A DNA stretch of 64,000 bases from Pocillopora verrucosa. Taxonomy: Eukaryota > Cnidaria > Anthozoa > Scleractinia > Pocilloporidae. This document shows positions 4,791-28,246 of the stretch, one piece after another. Each line of letters opens with the position of its first letter. Positions within the stretch are counted from its first letter, which is position 1. The stretch is taken from contig NC_089318.1 in the NCBI RefSeq assembly GCF_036669915.1, positions 19,519,561 to 19,583,560 on the forward strand, written 5' to 3'. The notes beneath the pieces are model-generated. The model ran no database searches. It was not told the origin of the DNA and saw only the letters and a list, made by a program, of their open reading frames with translations. Both the position numbers and the translations under genes were made by a program.

Positions 4791-7435
4791 AAGGGTTAAT
4801 TTAGCACTTCTGAAAATAAACAGTGGACAAGGGGAGAGGAGTTTAGAGAGTTTATCTCAAATGGCAGTCATGAAAATGTGAACTTGTGTTGTTTTGGCTG
4901 TCTATTCAGTGTTAGAATGTAATGCCTTCTTGATTCTCAGACTTCTGAAACATCTTAGCAGAAAATCTGCTCTGTTACAGCAGGCAGAGCAAGTGGAGTC
5001 CTTGTCGATTTTAACATTGAATTAAAAATTGCTTGTTTTCACAACTTCCCTTTTTAAATTTTGTACCTAAAAGGCTATGTTTAAGTTTCTTAATCTTCAA
5101 TTGTACCTCATATAATGTTAGGAACATATTTGAAGTTTATTTTTAACTAGTTATTTATACAACAGTATGGTTAGTTTTCAACATCAGGGCCCCTCTGGAT
5201 ACCATCCCTAGAGCTGAATGGTTACCCTGTATAAATAAAGTTTATCTATCAGTTGGAGTCATAACAGACCAATAAAATCTCCTGATTATTTAACAAGTTT
5301 CATTTCACGAAAGAGTGGAATTGTTGAAATACTTGTACCGGCAAGCTGACTACTAACACTCGTTATTTCTTATTCATTTCTGTTACTGACAGGGCAGCAA
5401 GGCTAAAGTCCTGAGACATCCAAACAATGCTAATTTTTTTTTTGATAATAAAGTGCTAAATTTAGTTATAAGCAATAATTAAATGCAAAAAGATTTCCCA
5501 TGCTTGATGTCATTCTTTTAGTTGAAAACTAGGTGACATAGAATGTGTAAAGGGGTTAGTTTTAAGAGCGACGGTCAGGAAATATTGACCATTGAGTGGC
5601 AAGAGTTGAAAAATGATTTTCGCTTATTTTCTGACTATAAAAAGCTACTAAGAATAGAAGAAATTTAATGTATTTTTTTTCTTCCGGAGCGCTTTAATTC
5701 TGAGAAAACTGAGAAAAACGAATTTGACCCGCGACGATTCCGAAAGGTCCTGCAAGCAAATGTAAAATTGATATTTTAAACTGACTTTTGGTCTTCAAGG
5801 AAAAACGATTCAAAGGATCATGACACTGAATTTTGATAGAGTGAGTGCCGTACTTTCCCAGAAACTATATGACTTATCTTTATTGTTGTTCATAAATAGC
5901 AAACAATGCGCAGGAAAGTGCTGTATTTTCAAACGTGAAAAATCCCGCAAATACCTCCTTAATTTCACTACGTGGTATAATTCAGATTTTCCTTTCAACT
6001 ATGTCATTAGAGGGATTTAAGGTTGTCCTCTATAATATGTCAGGGAGTCAGAGAGTTAACATAAACATACACTGCACATGAGCCAGTTTTCTTTCTATTA
6101 TCAGCCAGACTAAACTGTAACATTCCATTAGAAAAAGAACTACTGCATAATGATAATAGTATATCTGGAAACAAATTTAAATGTTTTTCTCTGGCCAAGG
6201 AACAACCAACACAGAAATCTTGTTTCTCACACACATCTAAGAGTCTGAATGTTTGGGTATGGGAGCTTATTTACATTGTGTGGCTAACAGTTTTCCATGT
6301 GATTCACTTATTGCTCATTACTAAAAGACTTCCCTCTCTGGCCAACCCTTCCTGACCTTGATATCTTTCATCCTGTTTATCTTAATTCTTATACATTGGT
6401 TTTCTCTTCTCACTCTCTGTGGCCCTTTTTGGGCCTTAGGTTTTGTGCTTTCTCCTCCCATGGGTCAGGATACATTGGTCAACTTTCATTGCTTCCAGTT
6501 GTGCATGAGCAAGTTAACATGCTGAATTTCTCATGACAGTTTGATAGATTTGAAAATTACCATCCTCAAGACATCACTGTTGTCACAGCAACATGCCATG
6601 ATGTCGAAGTGTCATATGATTTGCACCAACTATATTACACATAACAAGTATCATGGAGTCCTGATACAATCTGTCTCAAAATAGACTGAAATCTAACAGA
6701 TTCTATACAACGTAAATCAAAATGTAGCACTTAATCAATTATTTTTCATGACTTTTTTATCCTGTATTTTCCTTTCTGTAATTGTCCTATGTACAACTTT
6801 GTTTTTGATCCATCTCCTTTTCTCACCCACACCTGAAAATCACAAATAAACAATTATTCCTGGTCAAGAAAATGTCCCATAAGGAAAAGATAAATATCAA
6901 CCCTTTAAACCCCATTGTAAACATATAAGGCCAGTTATTTACAGAAGGTCAAACCCAAACTGTAGTTTTATGCAACCAGTGGGCCTTAATTATGTATTTA
7001 CTATAAGAGATTATTTTCATTAATAATTTTCATTCAATGTCCTTCCCCAGGTAGGTTTTGGCCCTTTTGACAAACTCAAAATATACATGTTGAGGCAAGA
7101 GATTCAGTCAAATTCAAGATAAGTTAGAAAGCAGTTTTGCTAAACAACAACTTATCTTTGTTTAAATGTTAAATTCTATAAATTCTTGTCAATGGTGCCC
7201 ATGCATTTCCATACAATAGCCATTGAGAGAATTTAGGCTATTTTTCTTTACTGATCAATTCTTTGATTCCCAGAACCTTTACTTGTGATGAGATGGTGAT
7301 ATTGTAATGAGAAATTAGATGCAGATCTCTCTTGGGAGTTCTGATTTAAGGGTTAACATGAAAAGAAATTTTTAGTTCTGTTTGTGAAGAAGACTGGCTA
7401 GAAACACCTCACAAAAGAGTAGAAACTAGGAAAAC
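4791..7435. other. intergenic, no gene seen
   Basis: AT-rich sequence with short ORFs only, none with splice context or a recognisable product. It separates the left-hand gene from the 3' end of the BRMS1-like gene. I looked here for a final BRMS1 exon (expected to encode a DGSKxKLYISQLQKG-like stretch) and did not find one. A degenerate TTAA-type MITE end lies near 7265-7362. Confidence 0.5.
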
Positions 7436-10400
7436 CTATTTAATCACCTCTCCAGTGTTGATTCCTGTAACTACAGCACTAAAGTAAAAAAACAAAAAAT
7501 ATTTCATCACCAGAACAAATTTATTGAAGCCATAAAAAGCTGAGTATAAGAAAGTGCGTTTGCCTAGTGCTATGGCTGCAACATGGTTAAATTGTATAAA
7601 CCAAGGCACTTCTTTGACATAACGATTATGTCTGACAACTGCTACAAAATATTCTGGAGTAAAATCAGTGCCTTGCAATGCACACTTGAAAAAGAAATTG
7701 AACTAGACTGGGGACTAACAAATATACAACTACAGATTGGTGAATAAGTGAAATTGAAGGGTATGGCTTAAGATAGTTATACTGAAATCCTGACAAAAAA
7801 CAAAAGAACAAATTTGAAAGTAAATTCACGATAACATGTAACATCAGGAATATGAGCTGTAGACATACCTGGAATGTGTATCATTTCTGCTCTCTATCAC
7901 TACATGATCACCTTTGTGGAACCTTGAAAAAGAATGAAAAAGAATGTAAAGATGAGATTATAATTATTAGAGCTTTTGCACAACTATCCACAAACATCGT
8001 TCGAGGTGTGTAATTCAGTCTTAATAGTCATTGTCATGTGTGCACAGCTGTCACAAACTAACAAATATATGTCAGTCACAGAACCACATACCATTCTCCT
8101 TCATAGTAAAGCTTTCCATCTTCATATCTTGCACTGAATGGACTTTTCTCAGATTGACAACCACCTATACACAAAATAACCAAGTTAAATAATTCAAATT
8201 TCCTAAATGTTAATAACCTTACTCAGACTTGAAGGTTTTCTCTTCTAATAACTCCTAGAAGGACTTCATCAAACCCAAGTTCAATAAAAAGAAAAAACAG
8301 GGAAGAGGTGGGCACCTAACATTTTTGGCAGATCAAAAATCAAGCTCAAAGTAGAATGAACAAGGCTTAGGTCTTCATTCCAAAATGCTTAAAATTGATA
8401 AGTATTCAAATTTAATGGACTATTCTCTGATGGAAATCAAAATTCTACTCTACCATCCAGCGTAAAGATATTCATCATTAAGTAGTAATGCATAATTTGT
8501 ACATCCTAGTACTGATGAAGGAAGCTGTGTTGTTGAGTGTTTTATACCAAGGATAACAGAGTTTAAGTAAGACCAACAAGCCTCTTAAACTGTGTTTTGT
8601 TGGCAGGTGTTCTAACAAAAATTTGCCACAGTCAGGTACAAAGAAATGTTGTTAAATCTACAGGTATATTAGCCATTCCAAACAAATGATCAATTTGTTT
8701 GTATCAATGGCCAACAATTGCAAAATTATTTTGGAAATGAAGGTAAATCAAATAATGTCCTACTTTCTTGTCTTCTCCTTGCCAATGCCCCTTTTGCCTT
8801 TAAAAAAAAAACCAAAACAAAAAAAAAATTATGTTATAGCACATAATTTTTTAATGGAAAACAGACTGGCAGTTGTAATTGAAAAACAAAAAAATAAATA
8901 CAGCTCTCATATAAAAAAAAAAAAATTTCTGATTAAAAACTTCAAGATTTACCTTCCTGATGGCTGCCCAGTCTTCAAGAATATCCATTTCTCTTAACAT
9001 ATACACAATATAGGGACTTAGGTAAGGTCAAGAAAAGACAAAGAGAATACCTTCAACTTAAATCCTCAATTATCCTTTTATAACTGAATGTAATATAGCT
9101 TAGTTAATAACCAGGAGCGAAGGGTAGGAGCTTAAGGGTAGAACTGATATTTTCTAACATGATATTATTACCATGCTAATATCTATGTCCTTCCCATACC
9201 ATTGAATGCAGCCTAAGTTTTTTGTCAGGTTTAAGTTCTGATAGTACCTTTGCACTTCCTCATAAATGTATATTATATCTGAATTTGAACTGGCTTTGCT
9301 CACAGAAGTTTTAATTGGTTTCTGATTATTTCTATCTCTTAAGATACTTTCTCTTTCTTCTTAATTATCTTTACTGTTTATGATTTCCATTGAATCCTCT
9401 GTGTTGAGTTTGATGTGTGCCAAGGGGAAGTATGGATGTGTATGGCTAGGTTGCCAGTAATGAAGGTCGCTGAAAGGTTAACCCTCTGACTCCTTTGGAG
9501 TGATTGACATGTAGCTTCTCCGTACAATACACATACATTATCCAGTAAACAGGTGATGAGAATTCTCAAAATATGAAGTTGTCATCATGATAATATGACA
9601 CAAATTCTCCTCACTAAGTTTCAAGGAAAAGTGTTGCAGATAGAAGGGAGAATTAACAATCAGATCTTGGGAGTTTAAGGGTTAAGTCGATTTAGCAGGA
9701 GAAGGTGTTAAACTTAATTTATCTGTATGGATCACAGTTTAAGAAACATATTAAGTGTAAAGTTCTAAAAGGATATCTGTAACAGTGACAGGCTTCCGTC
9801 TTTTGTCAGAGAGCATGGATCCATCAGATGACTTTCTGTGCCTCTTTTTAAGAGACTGTGATTCAAGCCAGATATCTGAAATGAAGTAAATAACACAATT
9901 CAAAAGTACTCATGACTGTCATTAACTAAAGTTAACTCAACTAAAAAGTTTTTAGGAGTGAGAATTTTGATTTATATAATAATGAAGGAGAAACAATAAG
10001 CAGCCAAAATAATGAGCATGGTTCCAAAGATTTTACCAGCTGAGATATCCATATTTTGTTTATCTTCTTCTAATTTTCTAATTTTTTCTTCCAACTCTTG
10101 CTTCATGCTTTCCATCAAGGCCAACTTTTCACTCTGTAAAGGAAAGATATTAAATATTTTGATAATAGTCAATTGAACAAAAAAAACATCATTTGAAAAA
10201 TATCAAGGCACTGTATGTAATAAAGTACAGGCAAGGCTGAGAGGTCAAAGGCATGTTTGCAACCTCTACTGAGCTTTGAAAATAGCCAACTAATTTGCAG
10301 CCAACTGTTATAGATTAGTATGCACAAACATAAATGACTTCCACTTGTACATCACAACCTTTTGACTGCTACACTTTGGTCAGGCAGTAAGGTTAAACGA

Positions 10401-13400
10401 TTTGCATCATTGTTTAAGTAGTTTGATGATTGGCTTCAACGGTTTTTAAGGTGCCAAATTTTTTTTAACCAAATCACGACTGGATAATAGATGATCTCAT
10501 TAAATACACTCTTTATCCCTTCTCAAGATCTGTTCAATCAATTTACAATTTTGTGATTCTAGTTCAAAGATTTCATATTTACTGATTGATATTTTTCCAT
10601 TCTTTAACATATTCTTGGAAATTGAACCCTTTAAATATGAGTGACCAAGACAGAATTTCTTCTTACAATATCATTACAATATCAATCAGGCAAGTGATAA
10701 GAATAAAGAAAAATATCAGTTAGGGGATTATGAGTTGATTCAATACCAAATTCTCCAAACTAATAACACAAGAACTGTATGGCAGACAGTAAAGAGAATA
10801 ACTAATGAGATATTGGAAGTTAAAGGGTTAACAATATTGTTGGAAGAGTTTTTCTTTAGGTTACCCCTTGGAATGTGAGGGTTCATGTCACTTACCTCAT
10901 AATGTTGTTTGGCAGCCTGTTCATCAGCATCATATTTGTTTCTTACGTTCCCTAACTAAAAAGAACAACAGTCATTTATTCATCACTTCCCTGGTTTATA
11001 ACCACCAACAAAATGACCAGCTCCCAGTTGGTTTGTTAGCTCAGTTAGTAGAATACTGTACTGGTATCACAAAGATCATGGGTTGAAATCCACTACAGGC
11101 CTTACTTTTACTGCTGCACAGTACTGTTCGCAACTGTGAAGATCGCTTTCATATTCATTTATTAATCTGCAGTTCATATATATGATTTTCATATATTTAC
11201 AGTCATTTAAAAGAACAACAGTTATAAGGAAGAAACACAAACATAATTTCCTTGTTTACTTAATTCATCAATCAATACATTTATTCACATTTTCCTGATC
11301 AGTCAAGTTGTTTCTTTTAGAAGTTCCATTTATTTTCCCAATCAGTGTTCAATACATGTAAATATCAATAATCAATTTTCACGATATTACCATGATAATG
11401 GTTAGTTTGATATACTGCACAAAGACAAGCCATCACAACTTGACACACAGCTGTTGCAACCACTAAATCATTTCACCATTTATGTCACTGAGGATACTTA
11501 CCCTACAGTTTCGTAAAATTCCTGAAAATCAATTAATCACAGATTAGTTTTGTAGCAAATTGCTTTAACAATACTTTTGTTTGCATGTAATGACTACACT
11601 TTCCCATACATCCCTGGAAAAAATAACAAAATGAGATAAACAAAATTGCAAATCAACAAGGAGTACTGGCTGAACAGCAGCACCTGGGTACAACTTGTAA
11701 GTAAATATACCAGGGAAGCAAAAAACAAGTGTTGAGTTTTATATCTAACTTTACTTGCGACCTACTTTGGTTATCATTTGTAATTTTATACTTTCACTCT
11801 CTTCACATTTTTCCCAGAAATGTTGATTTTAAAGACATTTTGTTACATGCATATAAGAAACTTTCTCATTGGATAGATGATTTGAAAATTTAACATCTCT
11901 CTTGTTCCCAAGTCAGTACTGTTTTTAGATTTACAAAAAAATCTTTTTTTCAAGGGTGGATAACCCTATTCACTAGATAACCGGCTTTCTGCTGGATAGT
12001 GCAGTACATTTTGTTATCACTTGTCCTCTTGGATAGCAGTTTATCTGTTTGATTGCATTATCAGCCTTTTGAATGACTGGACCCAAGTGGCCATTTGTAG
12101 TGGTAAATGTAAGAACAACAGGGAGCTAATACCAAGTTCTGAAGTACATGAAGTCTGACATTCTTATTATTCTGGCACTAGCTGCAATAACAAACTTAAA
12201 AATAATATTTTATCACTAATGCATACCTGCAACTTCAATTCTTATCTCACACATCTCCTTCAATTCACCAACAGGGCCTGTGTACTCCATGGCACATTCT
12301 GTTACGAGAAAATCACACAGTGATACACTTTATTGTTCTGCAATTTCCATCAAGGTGATTAACACCAATTTAATACAAGTCACAATTATGTAATCATATA
12401 AGATGGAAAAAATAGGATATAAATCATGTTTCATACAGATGATGATAACTGTTGGAGTAAGAGAAAGATAAAAACATTTATCACTAAGTTGACTGTAATT
12501 TTGTCAAGAAGGTGGAATAGGGTTTAAAAGTGATGTGTGATTATGCCCAAAGTTAATCCATAACACAAAAAATTTACAGAAAGGCAAGTTAAGGTGAGAT
12601 TTGTAATTTTTCCTTTTAGATTTGTAATGCGTGAAATACTGTTCAAAGTATATGTGACCTCCCTTGCTACCCTTTTTTTCAAGTGACTTCCTTGTGCACA
12701 GGGGCTGTTGTTACAGAGACTCAAATTGTGGGGAAAGAGGAGGGTAACAATGCCTGTAGCTTTATCAAAAGGAGGTGGAAGGTATTGAAGAAACTTGAAC
12801 AACCAGGATGAAGGATTGACAAAGGAAACAGATGGATAATCCTTAACCCCTTAACTCCCAGAAGTGACTAACATGGAATTTCTCCCAATGATATCCATAC
12901 ATTTTCTAGCAAGCAGTTTATGAGAATACTCAAACTTATCAGAAAGAACTTTTTATCTTGATCTTACACCAAGTTTTTGAAACAAATTTACAAGGAGGTG
13001 TGTAGCAGCAAGAGGAGAGAATTGACAATCAGATTTGGGAAGTTAAAGGGTCAAAAAAGGAACATCTAAACACAACTCTCCAGACACTTAGGATACACTA
13101 GCTTAACTTTTGAATGAAAAGGAAAATTTTATTTTAAAGCGGGAGAAAGAGGGAAAGAAAAGAGATCATTCTCCACCCTACCCCAGAAAACTTACCAGAT
13201 TGTACTTCATCCAACTTCTTCTCAACTTGGCTGATGCGCTCTCGATACAACCTGAAAAAGGAGCATCACTTTGCTACTACCTGCTCATCAAAATCGTCAT
13301 AGAAACAGCTTATTTTAACAAATTAATACTAGTAGTAAATTCAAACTTACTGTTCTTTCAGGTCGCTAAATTGTCTTTCCAGGTCTGCCATGTCATTAAG

Positions 13401-13679
13401 ACATTCATTTCTTCTTCTCTCGTTTTCTGTTTCGTCGACTAAAATCAAAAAGAAATTTAGATAAGAATAAGCTAACATACTGGCAAAACAATTTACACTA
13501 AAGAGCAAAATCGCGCGGAAGAAAAAGTCAATAAGTCTGCACTAACTGCTGGACTCGGAAGACGATTCGTCGGAACTCAGGCTGCTCTCTTCCTCTTCGT
13601 CTTCACTCATGTTCTCGTCTTCATTAGGGCTCCTTTCCACCTCCTCCTCGCCATTTTCTTCACCATCTACAGACGGCAT
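7436..13679 (-). CDS. BRMS1L: BRMS1/BRMS1L-like Sin3-HDAC complex subunit
   Basis: Members of this Sds3-like family are nuclear subunits of the Sin3-HDAC co-repressor and bind through coiled coils. Exons in order: 13679-13547, 13438-13351, 13251-13196, 12298-12227, 11521-11502, 10955-10896, 10133-10037, 9875-9777, 9017-8953, an unseen exon, 8164-8092, 7922-7869, 7478-7436. The start MPSVDGEENGEEEVE opens an acidic, Ser-rich N-terminus, followed by ADLERQFSDLKEQ, then the heptad-rich KQELEEKIRKLEEDKQNMDI, then PYIVYMLREMDILEDWAAIRK and YEDGKLYYEGEWF, all in the family's order. Oddities: one exon is only 20 bp; the 9776-9018 intron fits U12-type AT-AA splicing; exon phases demand an unseen exon (length 3n+1) between 8953 and 8164. 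The last exon reads SSAVVTGINTGEVIK then stop, about 28 residues short of vertebrate proteins, so a final exon may be missed. Family call sure, 3' end not. Confidence 0.85.
9018..9776 (-). other. candidate U12-type AT-AA intron in BRMS1-like gene
   Basis: The intron begins ATATCCTTTT, the U12 5' splice-site consensus. A TTTCTTGAC branch-site-like motif lies about 10 nt upstream of the 3' end. Only a 3' boundary after CTAA keeps the frame (ACA-G/GT-CCC, reading TGPYIVYML). The usual AG one base later would shift it. No GT donor near the exon end gives the right phase. Confidence 0.6.
9474..9687. mobile_element. TTAA-ended MITE copy
   Basis: About 210 bp with inverted ends close to TTAACCCTTTAACTCCCA. 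The right end reads GGGAGTTTAAGGGTTAA. Same family as the copies at 10622, 12843, 49718 and 58618. Confidence 0.65.
10622..10834. mobile_element. TTAA-ended MITE copy
   Basis: Starts with GAACCCTTTAAATATGAGTG and ends with GGAAGTTAAAGGGTTAA, about 210 bp, in an intron of the BRMS1-like gene. Confidence 0.65.
11029..11215 (+). mobile_element. tRNA-derived SINE copy
   Basis: A tRNA-like head (TTAGCTCAGTTAGTAGAATA, then GGGTTGAAATCC and an ACAGGCC acceptor end) is followed by a non-tRNA body. The D- and T-arm mismatches argue against a working tRNA gene. It lies in an intron of the BRMS1-like gene. Confidence 0.6.
12843..13056. mobile_element. TTAA-ended MITE copy
   Basis: Left end TTAACCCCTTAACTCCCAG, right end GGGAAGTTAAAGGGTCAA, with AATTTCTCC and GGAGAGAATT sub-terminal motifs as in the other copies. 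Confidence 0.7.
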
Positions 13680-14970
13680 ATTTAATAGATACCACAAATT
13701 CAAGTTGAAGGGTTCACACTGTCAAGAAACGAAGGAACTACCAAAACGTCCAGTAGAACTGTAGTCCCTACTCCTAATTTGTCATGCGCTAGGCTAGAGC
13801 CCGCATTTTCTAACTCAGCGGTTACAACGTTGTATTCCATGTGTAAACGATCTCGACCCCAGGGTCATACTCGTCAGCGGTATGGTCGCCACATGTCAAT
13901 ATTTGACAGTGGCGGTAAATTTGAAATTCGTAACGATTCGCCGTTGCCGTTGTGAAATATCACCACAGTATAATTATTATTTGAGCTGAAACCAAGGGGC
14001 AGGGCCAACCTATTTATGGCATGCTCACTCTGATGAAGGGCCAATGCTTGACACATGAGCTTTAAAACTCTTTTCAATGGCCAATTTACAATTTATCAAC
14101 TCAGTTGATAATACCAAATTACCTTGTTATGACTCTTCCACAGATGCAGCACCAGTTTCTTTAGAAACTTACCCTCTTTATTTCTGACACCCCTTTGTGT
14201 TTAATATCTATCTATTACGCATGAGCTGAGCTAAGCTTTTCACTTGACAATAACATTCTGAAGATGTCAAAAATGTTTCATTTTCTTGTTACTTATCTTT
14301 GCATTGAAAGATCTACCATTAAATTTTGCTTATATCTGTTCCATCTAAGGATGTAAAAATGAAGGCTGACTTCAATCCCAGTCAGGACCACAGACTATAA
14401 TCTTACTGAGATCATGTCAGAGACAAATGCATGCTAGACAGTCCACTGTATAATGCTCTACCCACTTAATCATCAAGTATGTAGAAGTGAGAGGGTGATC
14501 ATCCAAAAAGACCAAGTCTACAATGCAAACGAATGGAGAGAGAGAAAGGAGAAGGAGAAATGGAAGGGAATGGAGAGTAAGGGATGAAGACCAATAATAG
14601 AGAAGGGAGTGGGAATTGAATTATGTATAAAGTGGAAATTATTTTTAGAGGTGATTAACAATGTTCAGGAAATTTTTTTAATGTTATGTTCAGAGTCAAG
14701 GAGAACAATATATTTGTGATGTAAAAGTTACATGATTGTTTCATTCTTTAATGACTTGAAAATACATTGCTAAATTACATCATTAAACAGAACATCATTT
14801 CATAAATAACAAAACTAATTTTTGTTGTTTTTCAGTTATCTGCTTAATTAATTTGATAAGGTGAATGAAATTGCTACTAAGAAGTGATAACCCTAGAAAA
14901 TGAAACGACTATTTACCTTTAAAACACAATTTTGACTATAAAGGTTATGTTGTATATTATCAGGAAGTTC
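13680..14970. other. intergenic between BRMS1-like promoter and BANF1 3' end
   Basis: Upstream region of the BRMS1-like gene and downstream region of BANF1. It holds a dispersed repeat at about 13990-14215 and a GA-rich purine tract at about 14530-14620. No further gene seen. Confidence 0.6.
13990..14215. mobile_element. dispersed repeat with ATCAACTCAGTTGAT core
   Basis: Contains TTATCAACTCAGTTGATAAT, ATGCAGCACCAGTTTCTTTAG and AAACTTACC blocks in the same order as at 43085-43300 and 50340-50545, marking one multi-copy non-coding family. Confidence 0.6.
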
Positions 14971-15243
14971 TTACAGGAAAGCATCACACCATTCTTTTAA
15001 ACAATTGTGACAATCTGATCCCTGCTTCTTGTTAGCTGCACATGTGTCTTTAATCCATTCCATAAACATTTCTTGATCTTTCTTCAGAAGAAGGAATTGG
15101 CCCAACACAACATAGGCCTTGTCAAAACCCTTCTCGGTCAATCTTTCCCCCAGGACTGGACCAATTCCTGCAAGCTCAGTCACAAGCTTTTCACCCATAG
15201 GCTCCGCCACAAAGTTTCTGTGTTTTTGTGAAGTAGAACTCAT
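14971..15243 (-). CDS. BANF1: barrier-to-autointegration factor (BAF)
   Basis: The 90-residue product is full length (vertebrate BAF is 89). BAF is a small DNA-bridging dimer that binds LEM-domain proteins and chromatin and is needed for nuclear envelope reassembly. The helix-hairpin-helix region ([20 protein letters not shown]) and the ends ([28 protein letters not shown]) match the family residue for residue over long runs. The N-terminal Ser-Thr-Ser before QKH preserves the site that VRK kinases phosphorylate in vertebrates (Thr3/Ser4 there). The coding sequence is one exon. A strong polypyrimidine tract plus AG ends just before ATG (CTTTTTAGCATG), so a 5' UTR intron abutting the start codon is likely. 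VRK1 starts 913 bp away, divergently. Confidence 0.97.
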
Positions 15244-16156
15244 GCTAAAAAGAAAGATGTTGTGGTTAAAATAGAAAGTGAAAGACCGCTCTTTCTGATT
15301 AAAGGCGTGCAACTAGATCTTTGCGTGTTTACAACACCAGTCCAGAAGAGAAACATTCATTTGAACTACCACCTGCATTATTTAACAATATCGAGTAGTT
15401 CCCGAAGGATTAACTGGTCTACCTCGAAAAGCTTGTATGCACGTGTGTCACGTGAAAAAGTCTCGATCAATATCTCGATTGATAGCCGATCGATGTATCT
15501 GATTTGCACGGTAAGGACTTAAATGTGCCATTAAGCAATGAGCGGAATAGTTTTGGTCTCACATATCTAAATAATTTGCGATATCTGGCTCTGCTACCAT
15601 TCTTGTAAATTCTGGCAACCGTCGATCCATCCTCATGGCTAATAGATCGATTATAGTGATAAAAAAATGTCGAAAATCGATCAAATAGATGAGGACTCTA
15701 CAGTTCTAAACGATTTTTGGGTAAATTGAGGCGATTAAATGTGCAATTTCCCAAACAAAGTATAGAGGGCGGAGGAAGTGCCGAGTCAACGTTTGCTGAA
15801 ATCGATCGTCGCCATCGTGGACTTAGGAGGCATTTTAACTCCCTAGAATGCGGAGCTAATGCGATATGAAATGAATCGAATGAGATATTACCTTAATTTC
15901 GCAAAGAAGGAGTCGAAAATTTCTGCAGAGACAGTCAAAGACACTTATGACTTGGCTCCTTGTTTAAGTGTGCTCGTGGACCTGTTCCAATGTACATCGT
16001 ATAAGCTTTCCAACTTTGGTAAACCTAGTCATATATGGATAAAGCGAATGGCGGGAAATCGAAAGGGGCTTAGGGACCACTCCAACGACACCTTCCAACC
16101 GATGTCTAGGAAGAACGGAAGACTATCGACACACTCATAGCGATAACTGGCGTAAA
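15244..16156. promoter_or_regulatory. shared BANF1/VRK1 intergenic region, candidate bidirectional promoter
   Basis: This 913 bp gap separates the two divergent start codons. It holds two CACGTG E-boxes 9 bp apart (15440-15445, 15449-15454) and four ATCGAT hexamers (15489, 15646, 15676, 15801), with more CGATC/TCGAT variants around them. ATCGAT resembles the core of the insect DRE element; whether that factor acts here is unknown. A 93-codon ORF at 15859-16140 has no recognisable product and is probably 5' UTR. Confidence 0.55.
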
Positions 16157-18648
16157 ATGAGCTCTTCAAAGCCTAAGCTTGGGAAAAGGAAGGCACCTGC
16201 TGCTAAGGGGCCTGTACCGGTGAAGAAAAAGCCTCACAAGCCCCGAGGAATGGTTAAATTGCCACCAGGAACCGTCTTGACAGACCTCACCAAGAAAAAG
16301 TGGCGTTTGGGAGAGTTGGTAGGATGGGGTGGTTTTGGTGCCATTTACTTAGGTAAAATATATCTGACATGTGAACTACTTGTTGGTGATTTATGGCGCA
16401 TTTGAAACTTTGCTTTTTTTGGTTTTGTGTCTGATTTTTTTGCGATTTTGCCGCATTATCTCAACACATTGCAATGTTGTTATTGATGATAATTTGGGAA
16501 GAGAGTGTTTAATTGCAGAATGAGTTATGAGTCTCCCTTCCTCAGCCCTTCCAAAAAGAAAACTTTTATTGTTAGAACCTTTCAATCAGTATGTTCACTA
16601 TCATTGGTCGATGTAGGGGGCCATATTTGACTGTATGGACTCACAAATTCAAAAGTTTGCTTGAATTGAAATCTTTCCCTCACAGCATTGGGTAGAGTAT
16701 TGGGTATATTACTTTTAATCAAATGGTATAAAATCATGTTTGATTATTTTTAACAGCTTCTCCAGATAGTGGATCACCTGTTACTGAAACTGCTGAACAT
16801 GTTGTTAAAGTGGTAAGAATGTTATTAATATCTGAATGTTCTAATGCTGATAGCACCATTGGTCAATTACAATATTGTTATACCTTTACTCTTGAGTGCA
16901 TAAGAGTCCAGAACTTAAATGCCAAATGAGAAAGATCAAATGGGCAGATCAAGTTTACATTTGGAACATGAATTTAGATTAGAGACTTTAGATTTCTTAC
17001 TTCCTTAGGCCATTTGATTGTAATATCCTTTCCTTTCTTACAGGAGCCACATACCAATGGCCCTTTATTTACAGAACTTGCATTCTATCAACGTGTTGCT
17101 AAGCCAGAACTAAGTATGTCTCTGAATTTTGAATTTAAAAACAACTGTCTCTAATTGATTAAGGGCCTTATTCTCACGACCTTTGTGTTTGATTCAGGAT
17201 AATACTTAAACAAGAAATTTAATACTGGGCACTCTGAGGATAAAAGGGTAATGTCTTGTTAGAATCTCATCAGGGTACATGTTATGACTGGGAAAATTTT
17301 TTCTCTTATTAGTTAAAAGCTGGTGTCAGTCGCATCGTCTAAAACATCTTGGAGTTCCAATGTTTTTGGGTTCTGGGTTACATGAACATGAGTCCAGTAA
17401 GCTGCGATTTCTAGTTCTGGAGAGGTTTGGGAAAGATGTTGATGAGCTTTTCCTAAACAGTAAGCGGAGGTTTGATGTGACAACAGTGTTGATGCTTGGT
17501 CTGAGAGTTGTAAGTTCCTCCATTTACTTGAGAGTCTGCTTTGTTTTTAGTCGTATTATGTCTGCCTCTTAATATGTGATTTCTAATTCTTTTTTTATAT
17601 CGTAGGTCAATGATGATCCATGCTTGTATTAAATTCACTCTAGTGCTTTATAACAGAGTTTCTTTAAAATTGTTTTTTCTTTTTTTTTTTTTAATTCTGT
17701 TGCAAGATCGATGCTCTGGAGTATATTCACTGTCATGAATATACCCATGGAGACATTAAAGGCTCAAATCTCATGATGGGATTCTCAAAGTCAAAATCTG
17801 GTCAAGTAAGTGATGTCTGTACACTTAAGTCATTCACTTACACAAACTGATGCCTGATAAGAACTTTGGGGAAATGAATTGAACTGTTTGTTTTGACAAA
17901 AGATTATTTATAGGTTATATTTGCATATGAGACTGGCTCACATAGCTATTTGAGCTTATCAAACATCAGGAAATGATCAGAAGCACTGCTGCCCTTCGCA
18001 CATGAGACAGCTTATGGTCACAATGGCACAATGAGAATTAAGTGCTCTGCCCGAGAACCTTAATGCAACATCACTTGCAACAACATGAGTCCAGAGTCCC
18101 TAGCATTGAATTTTTGGTCAATGTGGTTAAATACCAAAGATATGTATAAACAATACTAAATAAATGTGAAACAAAGACTCATCATAGTGGTATAGGGTTT
18201 GAAAATTGGGGAATATCACTTGGGTAATATTCTTGGATATAAGCCAATTTAAGCTGGGGATATTTGGTCACATGCTGCATCTAGACCAAGCCAAAATATT
18301 TGATCGATCACAATCATGGATATCACCCGGTTTTAGCAGGGAGATATTCATTCACATGCTGCATTAAGACCAACTGCGTGCAAGCAAAATTATTTCGTGG
18401 ATCATAATTCAGAATATCAGTAACAAAACCCAGAGGATCACTTTTGTAGAAGGCTCTTGGATCAGATTTTTTCCCCCCCACAGGTCTATTTACTGGATTA
18501 TGGGCTTGTATATCGGTTTAGTCCTGATGGGAATCACAAAGAATATAAAGAAGACCCTAAAAGAAAACATGATGGCACAATAGAGTTTACCAGCAGAGAT
18601 GCACATAATGGTGTAGGTAAGCTGATCACCAGCTGCCAAACTTTTAGT

Positions 18649-18705
<57 letters not shown>

Positions 18706-20360
18706 TATTTTTAATTCACCTGTTGTAGTTATTGTAACTGGGTTGCCTGTGCAAGTACAACCTTGAGGCTTTGTGGGTGAGCAAGCAATAAAGATGGCTC
18801 TGTGGATAATCTGCCTGCATGATGGACTTGTTTGTACAACAAACATTACACCAGTGGAGTGGGTCAAAAGTTAGGACTGGGTTTTAAAAATCTGGAGAAT
18901 GATCTAAATCTATATACTACATTTAGCAACACATTACATCTTTACTAAGTAACAAACAAAGAAACAAAACCAAAACCTAAACCCCTCCGGTCATTTTCCT
19001 CCTGGAGCAATCTAGTTTTCAATAGACTTGCTCCTCTAGGATGCATGTTCAGGAAATAATGTTATTCAAGGACTACAAACTTTGTTCCCAACACATTAAA
19101 TGCTTCTATCCCTTCTGGCCAGGGGTATGATTTGTAATCCTAATAATTCCTCTTATTTGAGGATCTTCTGCAACTAACTTGTTAATTTTACTTATCATAC
19201 TTTGGTATTTGTAGTCACCTCGCGGCGTAGTGATTTGGAGATTCTGGGTTTTGTGATGCTACAGTGGTTGTGTGACAGACTTCCCTGGGAAAAGAATCTT
19301 CAGGATAAGGAATATGTGAGGAATGAAAAGAATAGGTTTGTGCAGTCTCTTCTCCCAGTAGGTTATGATGTCAGCTTATATCACATATTTTTATGGAATG
19401 ACAGTTAAAATATAATTGTTGTAAGGGTTACTCTTTGTTTTTACTAGGTATATGAAGAACATTCCAAAATTAATGAGGGACTGTTTTTGTGGAGATCATC
19501 AAGGTAATGTTTATTACCAACAGTTTAATTGAGGCTCAATGAGTCATGTGGAGCTTAAAACAATCCAAGCATACCCCCCTCCCTTATTTTGAGTCCTTCT
19601 TTTTATGGGCATAGGTTATTTTCATATGCTTGAATTTGATCTTCTATGGTCTTCCTCACTAGGAGTATACAGGCTTATTTCAGTGTTGATGTTCCTTTTT
19701 TGCAATTTGTGTGTTCAAAGTTTGGTCCTTTTTTCTTGGGCAGCATATTGTGGTGGTTGTACAAGTCTTCCCCTTCCTTCTTTGAAGAGAGAATGGTTAA
19801 CTGATTATATGCACACATCTTTCATTGTAGTTGAGATACAAAAGTACTTGGAATACATCAACACATTGGAATATGAAGATCAACCAGACTACGAATTCAT
19901 TCGTAAACTGTTCAGAGAGGGCCTTAAAAAGAGGGGATGTACAGATGATGGAAAGAATGTGAAGTTCACCACCTCAAAAGCCAGCTCAGCCACTGCTGAT
20001 CTTCCCAATGGTTATAGCTCAGCAGGAGAGGTCTGCATGTTATTATTAATATTTATATTATCAGGAGAAATTCTGTCTTGGGCACTTGTGGGTGTCAAAG
20101 GATTCGCAACAAATTCCTTGTGAACAAGTTGTGCTATTTTTTCTACCCTGAAACAGTCATTTTCCATCTTTGTGTTTTGGCTTTTTCACCCACAAGCAGG
20201 TGTCAAAAAAATCTGGCAATAAGGACCAATGTCAATGCTTACAGTGCTTCCATTCCATGTCCCATTATATGTCCAATCAATGGAAACTAAAAATAATATA
20301 CTGGATGTAACTATCAACAAAATAGGTTTAAACCACTTTTTTTGCGTTTCAGCACATTTG

Positions 20361-20415
<55 letters not shown>

Positions 20416-20848
20416 CATTTTTATTATTATTACTTCTTATATATAATATATGTCCTATATATCTTCACATTGCTATTATTACTTTTTTTTCTTCTCCTTC
20501 TTTAAAGTTCAAGAAGTAAATGTAACCAGAGCATATATCTGTTAGTTTTTCTTAGATTTTTATTAGCCTTTTTAATGTGTTCAGTTTTTTTTAAGGATTT
20601 TATCATAATTTTTTAAAATATTTTTAGTGATTACAGTGAGTAAAGAATATATTTTAAATGTCCTATTCTTGTCTATATAAATATTATTTTCTTATGAATT
20701 GCAGAAGCGCAAGTCAGAGGACACAAGTGTGTCACCTCCAGCTAAGAAATCTAAAGCCAACCCAGTCAGAGCAACTCGAGGAAGAGCTGCAGCCAAACAA
20801 CAAGCTGAACCTGCCAGACCAAGAGTTAGGAGAGCAAGACAAAGATAA
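16157..20848 (+). CDS. VRK1: vaccinia-related kinase 1
   Basis: VRK1 is a nuclear Ser/Thr kinase of the CK1 group that phosphorylates BAF, histone H3 and other chromatin proteins. Ten exons (16157-16352, 16757-16812, 17044-17113, 17313-17509, 17707-17805, 18484-18616, 19215-19335, 19448-19503, 19831-20030, 20705-20848) close in phase to 423 residues (human 396). Visible elements: glycine-rich loop [12 protein letters not shown] (54-65), VVKVEP lysine (83), catalytic loop HGDIKGSN (Asp189), the VRK-type DYG in place of DFG (211-213), and [19 protein letters not shown], a VRK signature. The C-terminal tail is basic ([17 protein letters not shown]), suited to nuclear targeting and chromatin contact. 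The start was chosen because a Lys-rich N-terminus leads straight into the kinase domain. It is head to head with BANF1 and tail to tail with the thiazole kinase gene. Confidence 0.96.
18651..18703. repeat. (AT)n microsatellite
   Basis: About 26 AT units in a VRK1 intron, 34 bp after the exon 6 donor. It produces artefactual Tyr-Ile reading frames on both strands. Confidence 0.95.
20365..20433. repeat. (TTA)n microsatellite
   Basis: Near-pure TTA/ATT triplet run in the last VRK1 intron. Confidence 0.95.
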
Positions 20849-22459: not shown

Positions 22460-24451
22460 TTAGGAAGGAAAGGAAATTTTTGCCCTTTCCAACAAGGTTT
22501 GTGCATTAAATCTGCCATAGGTATCTAGCATACGCATTCTGACACTACTTGGCCCCTTAGCTATTGGATCTTCAACAGCTAGCTCTGCTGCAATTCCAAA
22601 GATACTCAGTGTACAAGCACAACTTTTGATCACATGTGTTACATCTGTGGGATCCCCCAGAGAAACAAATGCTGCCAGCACAGCTGTCAAAGTGCATCCA
22701 GCTGCAGTTATCTTTGTAAGGATTGGATGACCATTTGATACAGTGATCACACTAGAGCCATCTGTCACAAAGTCATGTTCTCCTGTCACTAAAACAACAC
22801 AGCAGCACTCCTTGGCCAAGGCCTTGGCAGGCCCAAGGGCATGGTCGGAACTCTGAGAACTGTCAACTCCTTTTTGAGCTCCATCTAAACAGGATGTGAT
22901 CACCATTATCACTAATTTTAAACCCCTCTTCCACGAACCCTCAACACCTAACATTAGTATCTTAGTTCTCCAGGCTGTTCTCTATACAACTCCAATGGTG
23001 CTTGTCAAACAATTAAGAGCTTTCTTACTTGTTGATCATTTCCTTTATTCTCATGACCTTACTGTTTGAATCAGGGTGATATTGTAAGGAGATATTAGAT
23101 GCTAATCACTCTTGGAGGTTGAAGGGTTAACCCCAATATCAACTTTCATGTCTGCTAACAAAAAATTTGACTGTTGGTGTAAACATGACCCCAATTTTGG
23201 TGAATGGTGAATTCTTTATACAAGACTGAGTCATAAAGCAGCTGAAGCCTACTTTGGAACCAATTTGGAAAGTTGTGCTTTCTTCATTACAGTTTGCAGC
23301 AAGCCTTTGGTCAGATTTTCCTGTTATGACTGTTCAAGAACACACAATGACCTGTCCTACCACAATGACCATATAATCCAGAAACCATCACACTTATCAT
23401 TAAACCACTGTCTCCTGGGTGGGGTTGGGGGATGTGGCACAATGGTTAGCTCCATGATGATTGACAGCTAAATTGATGAAAATTCTAGAATTGCAATTTG
23501 CAGTGATCAAAAGCAATTTACATCATTACCATACCTGACGGCTGAAGATCAAGTCCTTTGCAAATACTTTTGGCAATAGCCATTATCTCAGAGGGATTGC
23601 CTCGTATCACAGTGGGCTTATAAGAAACAACCAAGTCTGTTGCAGTGTTTGTCCGTAAGCTGGTGGCACCTGCGCCCACAGGGTCTAACACCCATGGCTT
23701 CCCCAATTCCTGAGCTTTTGCTGCAGCCCTGTGCATTGACCTGATCCAAGGTGTAGAAAGAGTTCCAATATTTATCAGCAGTGCAGAGGCCAAGGTGACA
23801 AATTCTTCCACTTCTTCTTCAGCTGAATAATGAAAGTTTTTATGTTAGTCTGTTCGGAAAATTTATCACATTTTTTTATAATTGCGTAATTTGTTATTTA
23901 TCCGGCCATTCTATGTTTTCAGTTGATGTCTCCAAAGATCTGAGCCCAGGTACGTATCTACGGAGTCATTCTCGTATAAAAAAGTTAAAATTTAGAATCC
24001 AGAAGTTGTTCTGAAGTCCAGAGAAACAGAGTTGTAAAAAGCGACCTCAATCCTCCTTCCCTGTTTACTTTTTCCGCTTGCACAAGTCCTGAAAAAGATT
24101 GTCGGGAGAGAAAATTTTGTTTTTGTGTCTGTAGATATAATGCTCTTCTTCCACAACATAGCCTCTGACTCTCCGCTCCTAAAAAATTGTCGTTGACGTC
24201 ATAAACTTCTCTAAGTTTCCTTCATTAGTTAACATTAAAATGTTCAACCCACCGTGTACCATGGCAGGGGACGCTCCGATCGCAAGGAGAGTATTTGCCA
24301 TGATGTCCATCGACACATAATTTGTGATACACTGAACCAAAGGACAGTCCGATCTTAATTTCTGGAGAAGGCACCAACAGTCTGAAGAGCTACATTTCAC
24401 TGGCTTACGATTATTATCACCGGTGGAACTTGGATGTGCTGGCTGAGACAT
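22460..24451 (-). CDS. THIM: hydroxyethylthiazole kinase (ThiM family)
   Basis: ThiM phosphorylates 4-methyl-5-(2-hydroxyethyl)thiazole with ATP, a thiamine salvage step (EC 2.7.1.50). Exons 24451-24253, 23822-23535 and 22884-22460 join in phase to 303 residues, slightly longer than bacterial ThiM (about 260-270) because of an N-terminal extension and a Ser-rich linker near residues 165-180. Family features: PLVQCITNYVSMDIMANTLLAIGASPAM near the start, LLINIGTLS, VLDPVGAGATSLRT, IRGNPSEIMA, VVLVTGEHDFVTDG, NGHPILTKITAAGC with the catalytic-type Cys226, and GIAAELA. All expected core blocks are present, so it looks functional. Typical GT-AG introns and surrounding animal genes show it is not a bacterial contaminant. 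Only distant ribokinase-fold relatives are alternatives; the call is firm. Confidence 0.95.
22970..23132. mobile_element. dispersed repeat (CTGTTCTCTATACA...AAGGGTTAA type)
   Basis: Reads CTGTTCTCTATACAACTCC at the left and GTGATATTGTAAGGAGATATTAGATGC then GAAGGGTTAA at the right, as in the copies at 49718, 52816 and 59170. It lies in a thiazole kinase intron. Confidence 0.65.
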
Positions 24452-25860
24452 GGCATCCGTTCAGAAGATATAAGTTTAATTCTCACTTTTTAGAAGTGTA
24501 CCACAACTTCTCAGTATTCACGCACGAATGCACCAAAAGCGGAAGTAATCACGCGTGAGGAGAAATCAAAGTCACGCGATCAAGGCCAGTAACTGGCAGC
24601 GAAGGTACTTTATTCGATTCTTTCGCGGTATGCCTTGCGCTTGTGGAGCTGTCTAGACATCTAAAGGTTGGTGGAATCAGTCGTTTGATTTTCTCACCTG
24701 AGAATGTTGACATACGAAGATTATTTTTCAAACGCAAGTGTCTGATTCATCTTTAAGTAGATCACTTTCGCTTTGCAATTTCTTTTGAAGTATTTAATTT
24801 ACTGTAACTTGACAAATTTTTGCTTTTCTAAAAAAAGAGATTGGTCAAATTGATAAAAGTAAATTTAAAATGGCTTTTTTGTCAGATGTCATAGCATTTT
24901 ATGTTTATGGAATAAGGAGAAAGCGTTCTCTCGAATCCGGGGATTGTCCTCAAGAATACTCAAACCATTGAGTCACTCAGCGCTATTATTGTGAATACCC
25001 TTTTACATTTTAACACCAAATTTTCTCATCTTTGATTTCTTTGCTTTTTAACTTATTTACCATCGTTTTTACCGTCTCGTCATAGTTTTAAGCTCCTTAT
25101 TTCTATATATTTCTGTGATTTGGAACATTTCCAATCATATCGAGTGAACATCAGCGTAAACCCGGAAACTATGTCTACCGTTGATAACAGAGGGGGGCCA
25201 GCATGGTTTCGATCTAAAGATAAAGTTTGCCAAGAATTTGAAAGGGATTGAATCGTGAATTACTGTCACCGTAAAAATTGTCTTTAAAATCTAACTTGTA
25301 ACGAAATCTAAATCCAAGGTATCCCAAGCTCTTTCCCAGGGTCCTCTCTCTTCCTCCCTTAGGGAAGAGAGAGGACCCTGGGGACAAAGTTGTACCTCGT
25401 GCATTTCTTGCTTTTCACAAGATTCCATTTGGCATCCCGACCAACTATCGAATCAACGAGTAAATTAAATTCCGGTAGCATCAGCTTTCTGTTACAACGC
25501 AGTTATAAGTGGAGGAGAGGGGGGGGGGGGGGGGTGAGTGGGTGGGATTGCCAGTCAGATCCTAAAACGTCGAGTTTGTATTCAAGTTTGGGATGAGCAG
25601 GATCTTATTGATTCCTTTTTTTTCTATGTTTGTTGGTATTGTTGTTTTTGCGAATGTACAAATCAAAATTGTCTTAGGTTGCATTTTGGTCTGTCGTCCT
25701 CTCACTCAGATACCAGTTGTTGTCGACAAATGAACCTCATTTATGCTTAGTGAATTACGGGGAACCTAGCCTTTGTCTCAAACATGTTTTGTTATAACTT
25801 GTTCTGAGATATCCACGAGAATGTATTTATATTTTCTTTTAAGTGTACCACGAAAGTTGA
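24452..25860. promoter_or_regulatory. divergent intergenic region between THIM and PHYH-like gene
   Basis: The two genes point away from each other over 1.4 kb, so both promoters should lie here; I see no clear TATA box. Contents: a perfect-looking hairpin at 25334-25384 and a poly-G run at about 25516-25533. No additional gene. Confidence 0.45.
25334..25384. repeat. short inverted repeat (hairpin)
   Basis: CCCAGGGTCCTCTCTCTTCC is mirrored by GGAAGAGAGAGGACCCTGGG across a few bases, giving a stem of about 20 bp. It looks like a MITE end pair or a small palindromic repeat. Confidence 0.8.
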
Positions 25861-28246
25861 ATGGAAAGATTGCCCCCAAACACGATCACAGAGAAGGAAA
25901 TCCTTCGTTTTCAAGAGGATGGGGCTCTTTGTTTAAGAGCTGTTTTCAGTCATAGATGGATTGATCTCTTGCGAAGAGGGATTGAATTCAATAGGCTCCA
26001 CCCATCCGATATGACAAGACGTAAGGGCCACACGCCTCTCTTCTTTCACGATTACAGCAACTGGAAAAATATTCCTGAATACGAGGAGTTCATTCGCCAT
26101 TCCCCAGTTGGCGAAATAACAGGACGACTTCTTCAGTCTCCGGTAAGGGAGTCGCCAGTTTGCTTTGCATGACACCGACTTGTTTTAGCGTTGGAAACTG
26201 CTAACCATATCCTTCCGCGGCGCGGTTTTTCCAGACCTCTTTGCAAAAAGTAGCAAAGCAAAACCAAAGCAGGTTTTTTTCTCCACACTTAATTAAAAGC
26301 GTTCTTAACACATGGTGCCCATCCTTTGTAGCAGGTGTTTGCGCGGAACATGGGAGAAGAAAAAATGGAGATGGGGGTATGGGGAAGAGAAATCCTATCG
26401 CGCTTTCCTCCCCCTCCAGATTTCACCTCTGTAATTGTACAAAAAAATATCCTTATTCAACACGTGCTCCTGTAAATTTAAATGCCACTCTTAACTGCCT
26501 GGCGTTTAGTAGTCATTTGCAAGAGATGTCACCACATTTTCAGCTTTATTGTCAATTGTTAATCTCCTTAGGTATCTGCGCTGTATTCCAATCACGTGAT
26601 TGTGAAAGACAGCGGATCAACCAAACAAACTCCATGGCACCAGGATCAGGCTTATTATGAGATTGATGGAAAACAGGCATGTGTAACCTGTGATTTATGG
26701 TCGGTTTAGCTGATCTCGTACCCAGATCTTACCTTGTAACTTTAAATGAGATGTACAACCGCTTGGTCTTGAAAGGTCTGGGTACGAGACTACGGTTTAG
26801 GAATAATTATGTAAGTTCTGTTTGACTTGTATAAATGCGCTGAAACAATTTTTACAAGGTAAGGAATAAAAACTTGATAGAGCACAGTATTTCGATTGAG
26901 CATCGTCAAACAAAAACCAAATTATTTTAACGGCCGATCAGACCAAAATGTCAAAAGGAACCAATGAGAAACCAAAGTTTAGTTTTGCATTTGATTGGTC
27001 GAGAGGTCGGCGTGAATCTTCTTAACCAATCAAAACAATGCAATCCCAAATGATCCCGGGTTACTTTTACACGTCACAGTCTCTGCTCTCATACCGCTGA
27101 AGATTCAGAATAATGATGGTCATTATAAAAAAAATCAATCAAATTATTTGGCATAGCCTTGGAGGTCGTGATTTTATCGTTTTTTGTTCTTATAAAAAGA
27201 TATTTGCTTACTCAGGTTTGTTCTGTGTGGCTCCCAGTGGACCCAGTCTCCGAGCACACCTGTCTTCGTCTTGTGAAAGGTTCTCACAAGTTTCCATATT
27301 ACTTTAAACCTGTTCATTTTGACGGCCCTCCTTTTACGTCCTACGAAACAAAGCCTGGAAAAGAAAAGAGAGCTGATGAATTTCTTTCGACACCAGATGT
27401 TGATGGAAACGACCAATATCAAGTCTTGTCCTGGAATATGGAGGTGGGTTAGCCCTTAGAAAACCCCCCTCACCCTCCCCCCGCCGTCCGAATAAAACCT
27501 ACTGTTGTCAATCTAACGCTGATTTTTCGAAGGGTGGATAGCGAAATCCACTGGATTAATCACTTAGAAGTTGATTGTTCAGATCTCATTTATGTTTTAG
27601 ACCCTAGAAAGATGCTGAAATCGCCAATCCTGCGTCATGAATTTTGCCCACGTAAGCAAACATTGTAGCATCATTTAACTCCACAACATTTACCACATTT
27701 AATTAACTGCGAAGTTAGTGACTAGATAGCTTGAGTTTTTTGAAAAAAAAAACTGAAATAATAGTGCCAAGGAGATTGGGAATCTTTAGTATGAGGCCTC
27801 TAAATTAGATTTAGTTGACCCAATGTTCTCCCAGATTTCATTATCGCGTAACTGGAAACTTCTTCAGTTCTCGGCGAACCTATTACATTCCCGTGTATTC
27901 CTCTAAGTGTCACAGCACTTTTGTAATGTGAATGCTTTTCTCCCGGCTGAAATAAAATATCCATCAAGCTAAGAAAGGCAGCCGATGATGATCTCTATAT
28001 TTCATCTATTTTTTTTTTCTTTAGCCGGGAGACTGCATTGTTTTCCACATGAAAACAGTTCACGGTGCGCATGGCAATAATCTAGAGACGCCTCGACGAG
28101 CTTTCTCTACACGATGGCTGGGAGATGATGCTGTTAAAGGAGAACGACCTTGGATAAATCTACCACCAAGTAACGAGATCAGAAACTTGAAAATAGGAGA
28201 GAACCTCATTAAGTCGGGTGCATTCACTGTTACTTGGACCGTATAG
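25861..28246 (+). CDS. phytanoyl-CoA dioxygenase (PhyH) family protein
   Basis: PhyH enzymes are Fe(II)/2-oxoglutarate-dependent oxygenases; the substrate here is unknown. Exons 25861-26142, 26572-26676, 27216-27443 and 28025-28246 join in phase to 278 residues. The iron-binding HxD is TPWHQDQAYY (His117, Asp119). The distal ligand is probably His218 in KTVHGAHGNN, and an Arg near 230 in RRAFSTRWLGDD fits 2-oxoglutarate binding. The N-terminus (ITEKEILRFQEDGALCLR) matches the family opening. The second intron starts with GC (AAACAG/GCATGT), a GC-AG intron required by the frame. No peroxisomal targeting signal is evident at either end. The sequence style, notably RWLGDDA, recalls bacterial and marine-invertebrate PhyH proteins rather than human PHYH. 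A MITE begins directly at the stop codon. Confidence 0.9.
26714..26789. mobile_element. small inverted-repeat element
   Basis: TCTCGTACCCAGATCT is mirrored by AGGTCTGGGTACGAGA about 45 bp later. It looks like a mini-MITE in a PHYH intron. Confidence 0.6.

Follow-up and report, generated by a model that had tools for sequence, protein, structure and literature searches.

Introduction

A close described parallel to the gene pair studied here is PDI/RhoGDI. In the account of PMC5722932, these gene partners are linked in cnidarians as well as in vertebrates and were duplicated in the vertebrate ancestor. As with BAF (BANF1) and its kinase VRK1, the products act together and the genes are neighbours; however, PDI and RhoGDI have the same transcription orientation and their co-expression has been shown experimentally (PMC5722932), whereas BAF and VRK1 diverge and are known here from sequence. 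In nuclear-envelope assembly, BAF and VRK1 act as a kinase-substrate switch, and the mitotic action of this switch has been described in other animals (PMC8053085, PMC7438335). In human, VRK1 targets BAF at Ser4 first and at Thr3 second (PMC8053085). A literature search that omitted most subscription journals found no published account of BAF-VRK1 linkage.

A second type of system with which the locus can be compared is the bidirectional, or head-to-head, promoter pair, which is usually defined by the distance between transcription start sites. BAF and VRK1 of the coral Pocillopora verrucosa are likewise divergent: less than 1 kb separates their start codons, and a single CpG-normal block lies in this interval, but the arrangement is known here from the start codons. 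A first-pass annotation of the locus had stated that the two genes start 913 bp apart in opposite directions and that BAF keeps the N-terminus phosphorylated by VRK1, and had proposed a shared promoter and an ancient linkage. Here, we followed up these statements in the window, that is, the whole stretch of 64,000 nucleotides that was analysed, and in homologs from other animals.

Results

BAF and VRK1 are intact, divergent neighbours

The genes and the region between them are placed as follows (positions are those of the window):

6749..13679, minus strand, as BAF: BRMS1/BRMS1L-like gene, hand-made model, Sds3 PF08598, E=4.7e-21
15243..14971, minus strand: BANF1/BAF coding sequence, one coding exon, 90 aa, SAM_BAF PF02961, E=3.2e-45
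15244..16156, no strand: divergent intergenic region, 913 bp, CpG-normal, candidate bidirectional promoter, CpG o/e 1.18
16157..20848, plus strand: VRK1 gene, ten coding exons, 423 aa, all ten exons matched by tblastn of homolog P0001
16157-16352, 16757-16812, 17044-17113, 17313-17509, 17707-17805, plus strand: VRK1 coding exons 1-5
18484-18616, 19215-19335, 19448-19503, 19831-20030, 20705-20848, plus strand: VRK1 coding exons 6-10

The start codons of BAF and VRK1 flank positions 15244-16156, so that the spacing and orientation given by the first-pass annotation are confirmed and its coordinates are right; the 913 bp run from ATG to ATG and are not the distance between transcription starts. 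The SAM_BAF domain of the coral BAF protein is complete (residues 2-89, profile positions 1-88 of 88), seven distinct BAF sequences in the PDB match it (best E=1.3e-43), and the homologs P0121, P0122 and P0123, for which the source molecule is not stated, are 100, 98 and 98% identical to it. Its N-terminus reads M-S-S-T-S-Q-K-H. In the alignment, human BAF is shorter by one residue, and the human VRK1 targets Ser4 and Thr3 therefore correspond to Ser5 and Thr4 in the coral. The VRK1-target N-terminus, with Thr-Ser before Gln-Lys-His, is present in the form S-S-T-S-Q-K-H, and the retention of Ser-Thr-Ser-Gln-Lys-His noted earlier can be read directly in the sequence. Among the best 120 of 1214 BAF homologs, S-S-T-S stands ahead of QKH in 101, the remainder having S-T-T-S (10), S-S-T-T (1), another sequence (6) or no fit to the pattern (2). 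With BAF as the query, tblastn scans of viral contigs and genome contigs gave no relative.

Immediately ahead of the BAF ATG, and inside the 913-bp gap, lies the acceptor-like sequence TTTTTAG, which makes a BAF 5'UTR intron using this acceptor possible. The frames of P0121 and P0123 stay open ahead of the BAF ATG, and by tblastn the two proteins map gap-free as far as positions 15356 and 15360, respectively (P0121 with a frame shift). We considered, and then dropped, the reading that this proves an unspliced 5'UTR: the two contigs (1,682 and 1,790 bases) come from a molecule that is not stated, BAF has a single coding exon, and the contigs could be genomic DNA. The stretch from BAF to about 15360 may be 5'UTR or plain genomic DNA.

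All nine introns of VRK1 start with GT and end with AG. The model and homolog P0001 disagree in 3 of 423 residues (99% identity). The coding sequence of P0001 runs intron-free along a contig of 2,667 bases, which is therefore taken to be RNA-derived and to confirm the splicing model. Identity to a Porites lutea protein is 74%. By PDB match scores, the coral kinase is closest to VRK1 and not to VRK2 or VRK3, the best matches scoring 390, 322 and 178 bits, respectively (best E=1.2e-115 for VRK1 and 7.1e-95 for VRK2). The catalytic residues K83, D189 (in HGDIK) and D211 (in DYG) are intact.

The BRMS1/BRMS1L-like gene lies directly downstream of BAF, with 1,291 bp between the BAF stop codon and the BRMS1 ATG. 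A tblastn search with P0241 places the first and the last BRMS1 residue and leaves short internal stretches unaligned. Homologs of this gene carry the name BRMS1-like. The one from Stylophora pistillata is 96% identical and covers 75% of the query; that from Acropora muricata is 88% identical and covers all of it.

The intergenic region is a candidate promoter

In corals, transcribed gene bodies tend toward methylation and loss of CpG. We scanned the window for CpG-normal runs of at least 200 bases, using windows of 400 bases and 0.8 as the cut-off. The CpG o/e ratio is 1.18 in the gap, compared with 0.13 in BAF and its 3' side, 0.33 in VRK1 exon 1, 0.22 in the remainder of VRK1 and 0.15 in the BRMS1 body. 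The stretch from about 5.9 to 24.3 kb contains just two such CpG-normal runs, one in the BAF-VRK1 gap (15350-16050) and one at the BRMS1 start (13400-14000), where the following block was placed:

13300..13950, no strand: second CpG-normal block, BRMS1 5' end, CpG o/e 1.17

Three CpG-depleted gene bodies are thus accompanied by two undepleted blocks, one of which is common to BAF and VRK1. As 35% of the 400-base windows across the stretch are CpG-normal, the block in the gap is supportive of a promoter and not decisive. We regard it as the strongest in-silico indication that BAF and VRK1 have a promoter domain in common. The shared promoter proposed earlier appears plausible on this basis, its support being in silico and consisting of the sole CpG-normal block that lies between the gene bodies of BAF and VRK1.

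Two short elements in the gap were noted as weak candidates:

15440..15454, no strand: two CACGTG boxes, starts 9 bp apart, shuffle P=0.0085, uncorrected
16050..16057, plus strand: GGCGGGAA, which we take to be an E2F-like octamer, about 100 bp before the VRK1 ATG

The octamer occurs twice in the window against 0.43 expected, one copy being in the gap (shuffle P=0.013, uncorrected). Taken singly, four ATCGAT, two CACGTG and one GGCGGGAA in the gap exceed shuffled sequences with P values of 0.003-0.013. Eleven motifs were tried and nothing survives correction for this number; the motifs were therefore rejected as support for a promoter. None of the six-letter words in the gap stands out against shuffled sequence (the top count is 6, and 83 of 500 shuffles reach at least 6). 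TATAAA, CCGGAA, TATCGATA, TGACGTCA and GCGCGC are absent from the 913 bp, and CCAAT and TTTGAA are not enriched there. Positions 15200-16400 gave no match to phages, and Rfam no match within the window.

BAF, VRK1 and BRMS1 share contigs in several animal phyla

As a proxy for linkage, two proteins named for one species on contigs of identical bp were taken to lie on one contig, the bp figure being that of the longest contig per match (clusters at 90% identity). The best 120 of 484 (VRK1), 1214 (BAF) and 857 (BRMS1) matches were compared by eye. A shared contig is not adjacency, and distance and orientation were read in the coral window only.

In the best-120 lists, BAF and VRK1 share a contig in three of eight common species, namely Clytia hemisphaerica (814,193 bp), Haliotis asinina (66,935,639 bp) and Engystomops pustulosus (184,509,409 bp). 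They are apart in the other five: Nematostella (840,688 vs 192,852 bp), Lingula (739,992 vs 566,329 bp), Paralvinella (1,128,966 vs 811,118 bp) and the teleosts Acanthopagrus latus and Antennarius striatus, in which they lie on different chromosome-sized contigs. BAF and BRMS1 share a contig in five of the eight species common to their best-120 lists, that is, in Porites evermanni (69,332 bp), P. lobata (2,530,769 bp), Lingula anatina (739,992 bp), Ridgeia piscesae (1,327,437 bp) and Haliotis. The three misses are Nematostella, whose BRMS1 (17,865,913 bp) seemingly comes from another assembly than its BAF and VRK1 and was still counted as a miss here and in the VRK1-BRMS1 comparison, and Megalops and Alosa alosa, where the fish gene involved is named BRMS1-like. 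Among the species compared, BAF is hence linked more consistently to BRMS1 (5/8) than to VRK1 (3/8). For VRK1 and BRMS1 or BRMS1L, six of ten species in common on the best-120 lists match (Acropora cervicornis, 5,131,197 bp; Haliotis; Sinanodonta, 156,443,777 bp; Chanos, 63,121,898 bp; Colossoma, 43,836,131 bp; Scleropages, 54,115,380 bp) and four do not (Nematostella, Lingula, Danionella and Lethenteron). In Haliotis, all three genes are on one chromosome-sized contig.

The chance of sharing a contig was calculated as contig bp divided by genome bp. With assumed genome sizes, it is about 0.0019 for Clytia, 0.0018 for Lingula, 0.0019 for Ridgeia, 0.0001 for P. evermanni, 0.004 for P. lobata, 0.017 for A. 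cervicornis and 0.06 for Haliotis; the matches in corals cannot be counted as independent of the window studied. Given a shared ancestral chromosome, we estimate that the chance of meeting on one 0.8-Mb Clytia contig is a few per cent and not 0.2 per cent.

An ancient BRMS1-BANF1-VRK1 linkage group appears well supported by these contigs, and close BAF-VRK1 proximity has likely been retained in hydrozoans. The first-pass annotation had suggested that the linkage of BAF and VRK1 could be ancient and that unlinked genes in close relatives would refute this. The Clytia contig and the chromosome-sized contigs of Haliotis and Engystomops agree with the suggestion, whereas the different scaffolds in Lingula, Paralvinella and, among cnidarians, Nematostella go against it in part.

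Discussion

We read the coral locus as an ordinary divergent gene pair inside an ancient BRMS1-BANF1-VRK1 linkage group, and we assign no age to the adjacency itself. According to the explanation that we favour, and to which we give about an even chance, the intact BANF1 and VRK1 genes diverge from one compact promoter region within a linkage group that predates the cnidarian-bilaterian split. Both genes would be driven divergently by a promoter region that is CpG-normal, presumably unmethylated and no longer than 0.9 kb. Judging from this anatomy, the open block would fire both genes in dividing cells and thereby supply substrate and kinase together, and we infer shared regulatory elements and co-expression of BAF and VRK1 in such cells. 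By analogy with other animals, coral VRK1 would then phosphorylate BAF at Ser5 and Thr4 at mitotic entry, so that BAF comes off the DNA, and a phosphatase would undo this phosphorylation at mitotic exit.

The same observations could be accounted for by ancient macrosynteny only. In that case, the genes share an ancestral chromosome on which gene order shuffles, and the head-to-head position in the coral is a neutral accident with a short gap and no shared regulation. We consider this a real, if tentative, possibility. The co-locations in Haliotis, Engystomops, Sinanodonta, Chanos, Colossoma and Scleropages are all chromosome-sized; Nematostella, Lingula and Paralvinella each have BAF and VRK1 on separate scaffolds; and in yeasts one study names intergene distance as the best predictor of conserved pairs (PMC2258174). 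It fits less well with the sub-megabase contigs common to BAF and VRK1 in Clytia and to BAF and BRMS1 in Lingula and P. evermanni, and with the single CpG-normal block that separates both starts. That the two genes are unrelated, became neighbours recently in the coral lineage and owe their kinase-substrate link to an after-the-fact story seems very improbable. Many kinase-substrate pairs are known per genome, and a lone adjacent pair would hence be unsurprising, but the contig match in Clytia and the linkage of BRMS1 across phyla speak against coincidence, and the co-location on contigs in other phyla raises the coral pair above chance.

Nested in our favoured explanation is the stronger proposal that co-regulation was selected, with a bidirectional promoter matching the dosage of kinase and substrate over the cell cycle and the pair kept together since the cnidarian ancestor or earlier. 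The divergent arrangement around one CpG-normal block, the intact substrate and kinase and the Clytia contig are in line with it, as is the precedent of PDI/RhoGDI, an interacting pair that is together in cnidarians and vertebrates (PMC5722932). As the genes are on different chromosomes in human and on different scaffolds in Nematostella, linkage is not required, and we think this proposal rather unlikely. BAF and VRK1 may be a further case, next to PDI/RhoGDI, of ancient linked partner genes. Should their linkage prove as old as the contigs suggest, it would provide a test of whether functional partners stay neighbours for matched dosage; species with BAF and VRK1 on one contig and species with the pair apart have both been identified for such a comparison.

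The arrangement in vertebrates can be viewed against the same background. The human regions 11q13 and 14q are paralogous, having arisen in the genome duplications of early vertebrates, and we take human BANF1 to lie at 11q13 and to be head to head with EIF1AD. The human genes that correspond to the coral pair by best PDB matches are on chromosomes 11 and 14, whereas the coral genes are adjacent. Specifically, human BANF1 has been placed on chromosome 11 near FOSL1 and OVOL1 (PMC3380836), BRMS1 at 11q13.1-13.2 (PMC5563535), VRK1 at 14q32.2 (PMC2042987) and BRMS1L within a 14q13 interval (PMC3643849). We propose that the BRMS1-BANF1-VRK1 linkage group was doubled by vertebrate whole-genome duplication and may then have been resolved into BANF1 with BRMS1 on chromosome 11 and VRK1 with BRMS1L on chromosome 14; the separation of the human pair would follow from such reciprocal loss. 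One might speculate further that a single bidirectional promoter has set the BAF:VRK1 ratio since the cnidarian ancestor or before, and that this coupling was lost when the vertebrate duplication split the pair between the paralogous regions of chromosomes 11 and 14, but we regard this as doubtful. Farther along the same coral window lies the likely counterpart of HECTD1, a gene that in human is presumably located at 14q12.

Other genes in the window

Profile matches point to further genes in the window, listed here with their coordinates and strands.

Further features in the window
22460-24460, minus: hydroxyethylthiazole kinase (PF02110 in two separate open frames, E=1.1e-25 and 1.2e-28)
25861-27452, plus: possible phytanoyl-CoA dioxygenase-like gene (weak PhyH match)
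about 37900-43000, plus: leucine-rich-repeat gene (LRR matches on 40563-40850, under the cut-off)
about 51000-62600, minus: HECTD1-like domain set

In the last of these, Sad1_UNC (a weak match, under the cut-off), MIB_HERC2 and HECT follow each other in this order on a single strand, the layout known for HECTD1. Human HECTD1 is located at 14q12, on the chromosome arm that also carries VRK1 and BRMS1L. The leucine-rich-repeat gene presumably resembles PPP1R37.

Hydroxyethylthiazole kinase is a thiamine-salvage enzyme found chiefly in microbes and plants. As introns appear to split its coding sequence here, the gene is probably the coral's own. For the phytanoyl-CoA dioxygenase-like candidate, the PhyH match covers 27132-27452 (E=0.005, under Pfam's cut-off), and the profile search gave no match on 25861-26169.

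Unusual BAF homologs

Two BAF homologs depart from the usual form. The krill protein P0124 (Meganyctiphanes; named BAF-like) fits roughly one and a half copies of the BAF repeat into its 128 residues, with the N-terminal motif present once; this arrangement may be a gene-model artefact. The BAF homolog P0127 reads S-S-T-T-Q-K-H, which places a threonine at the preferred VRK1 site.
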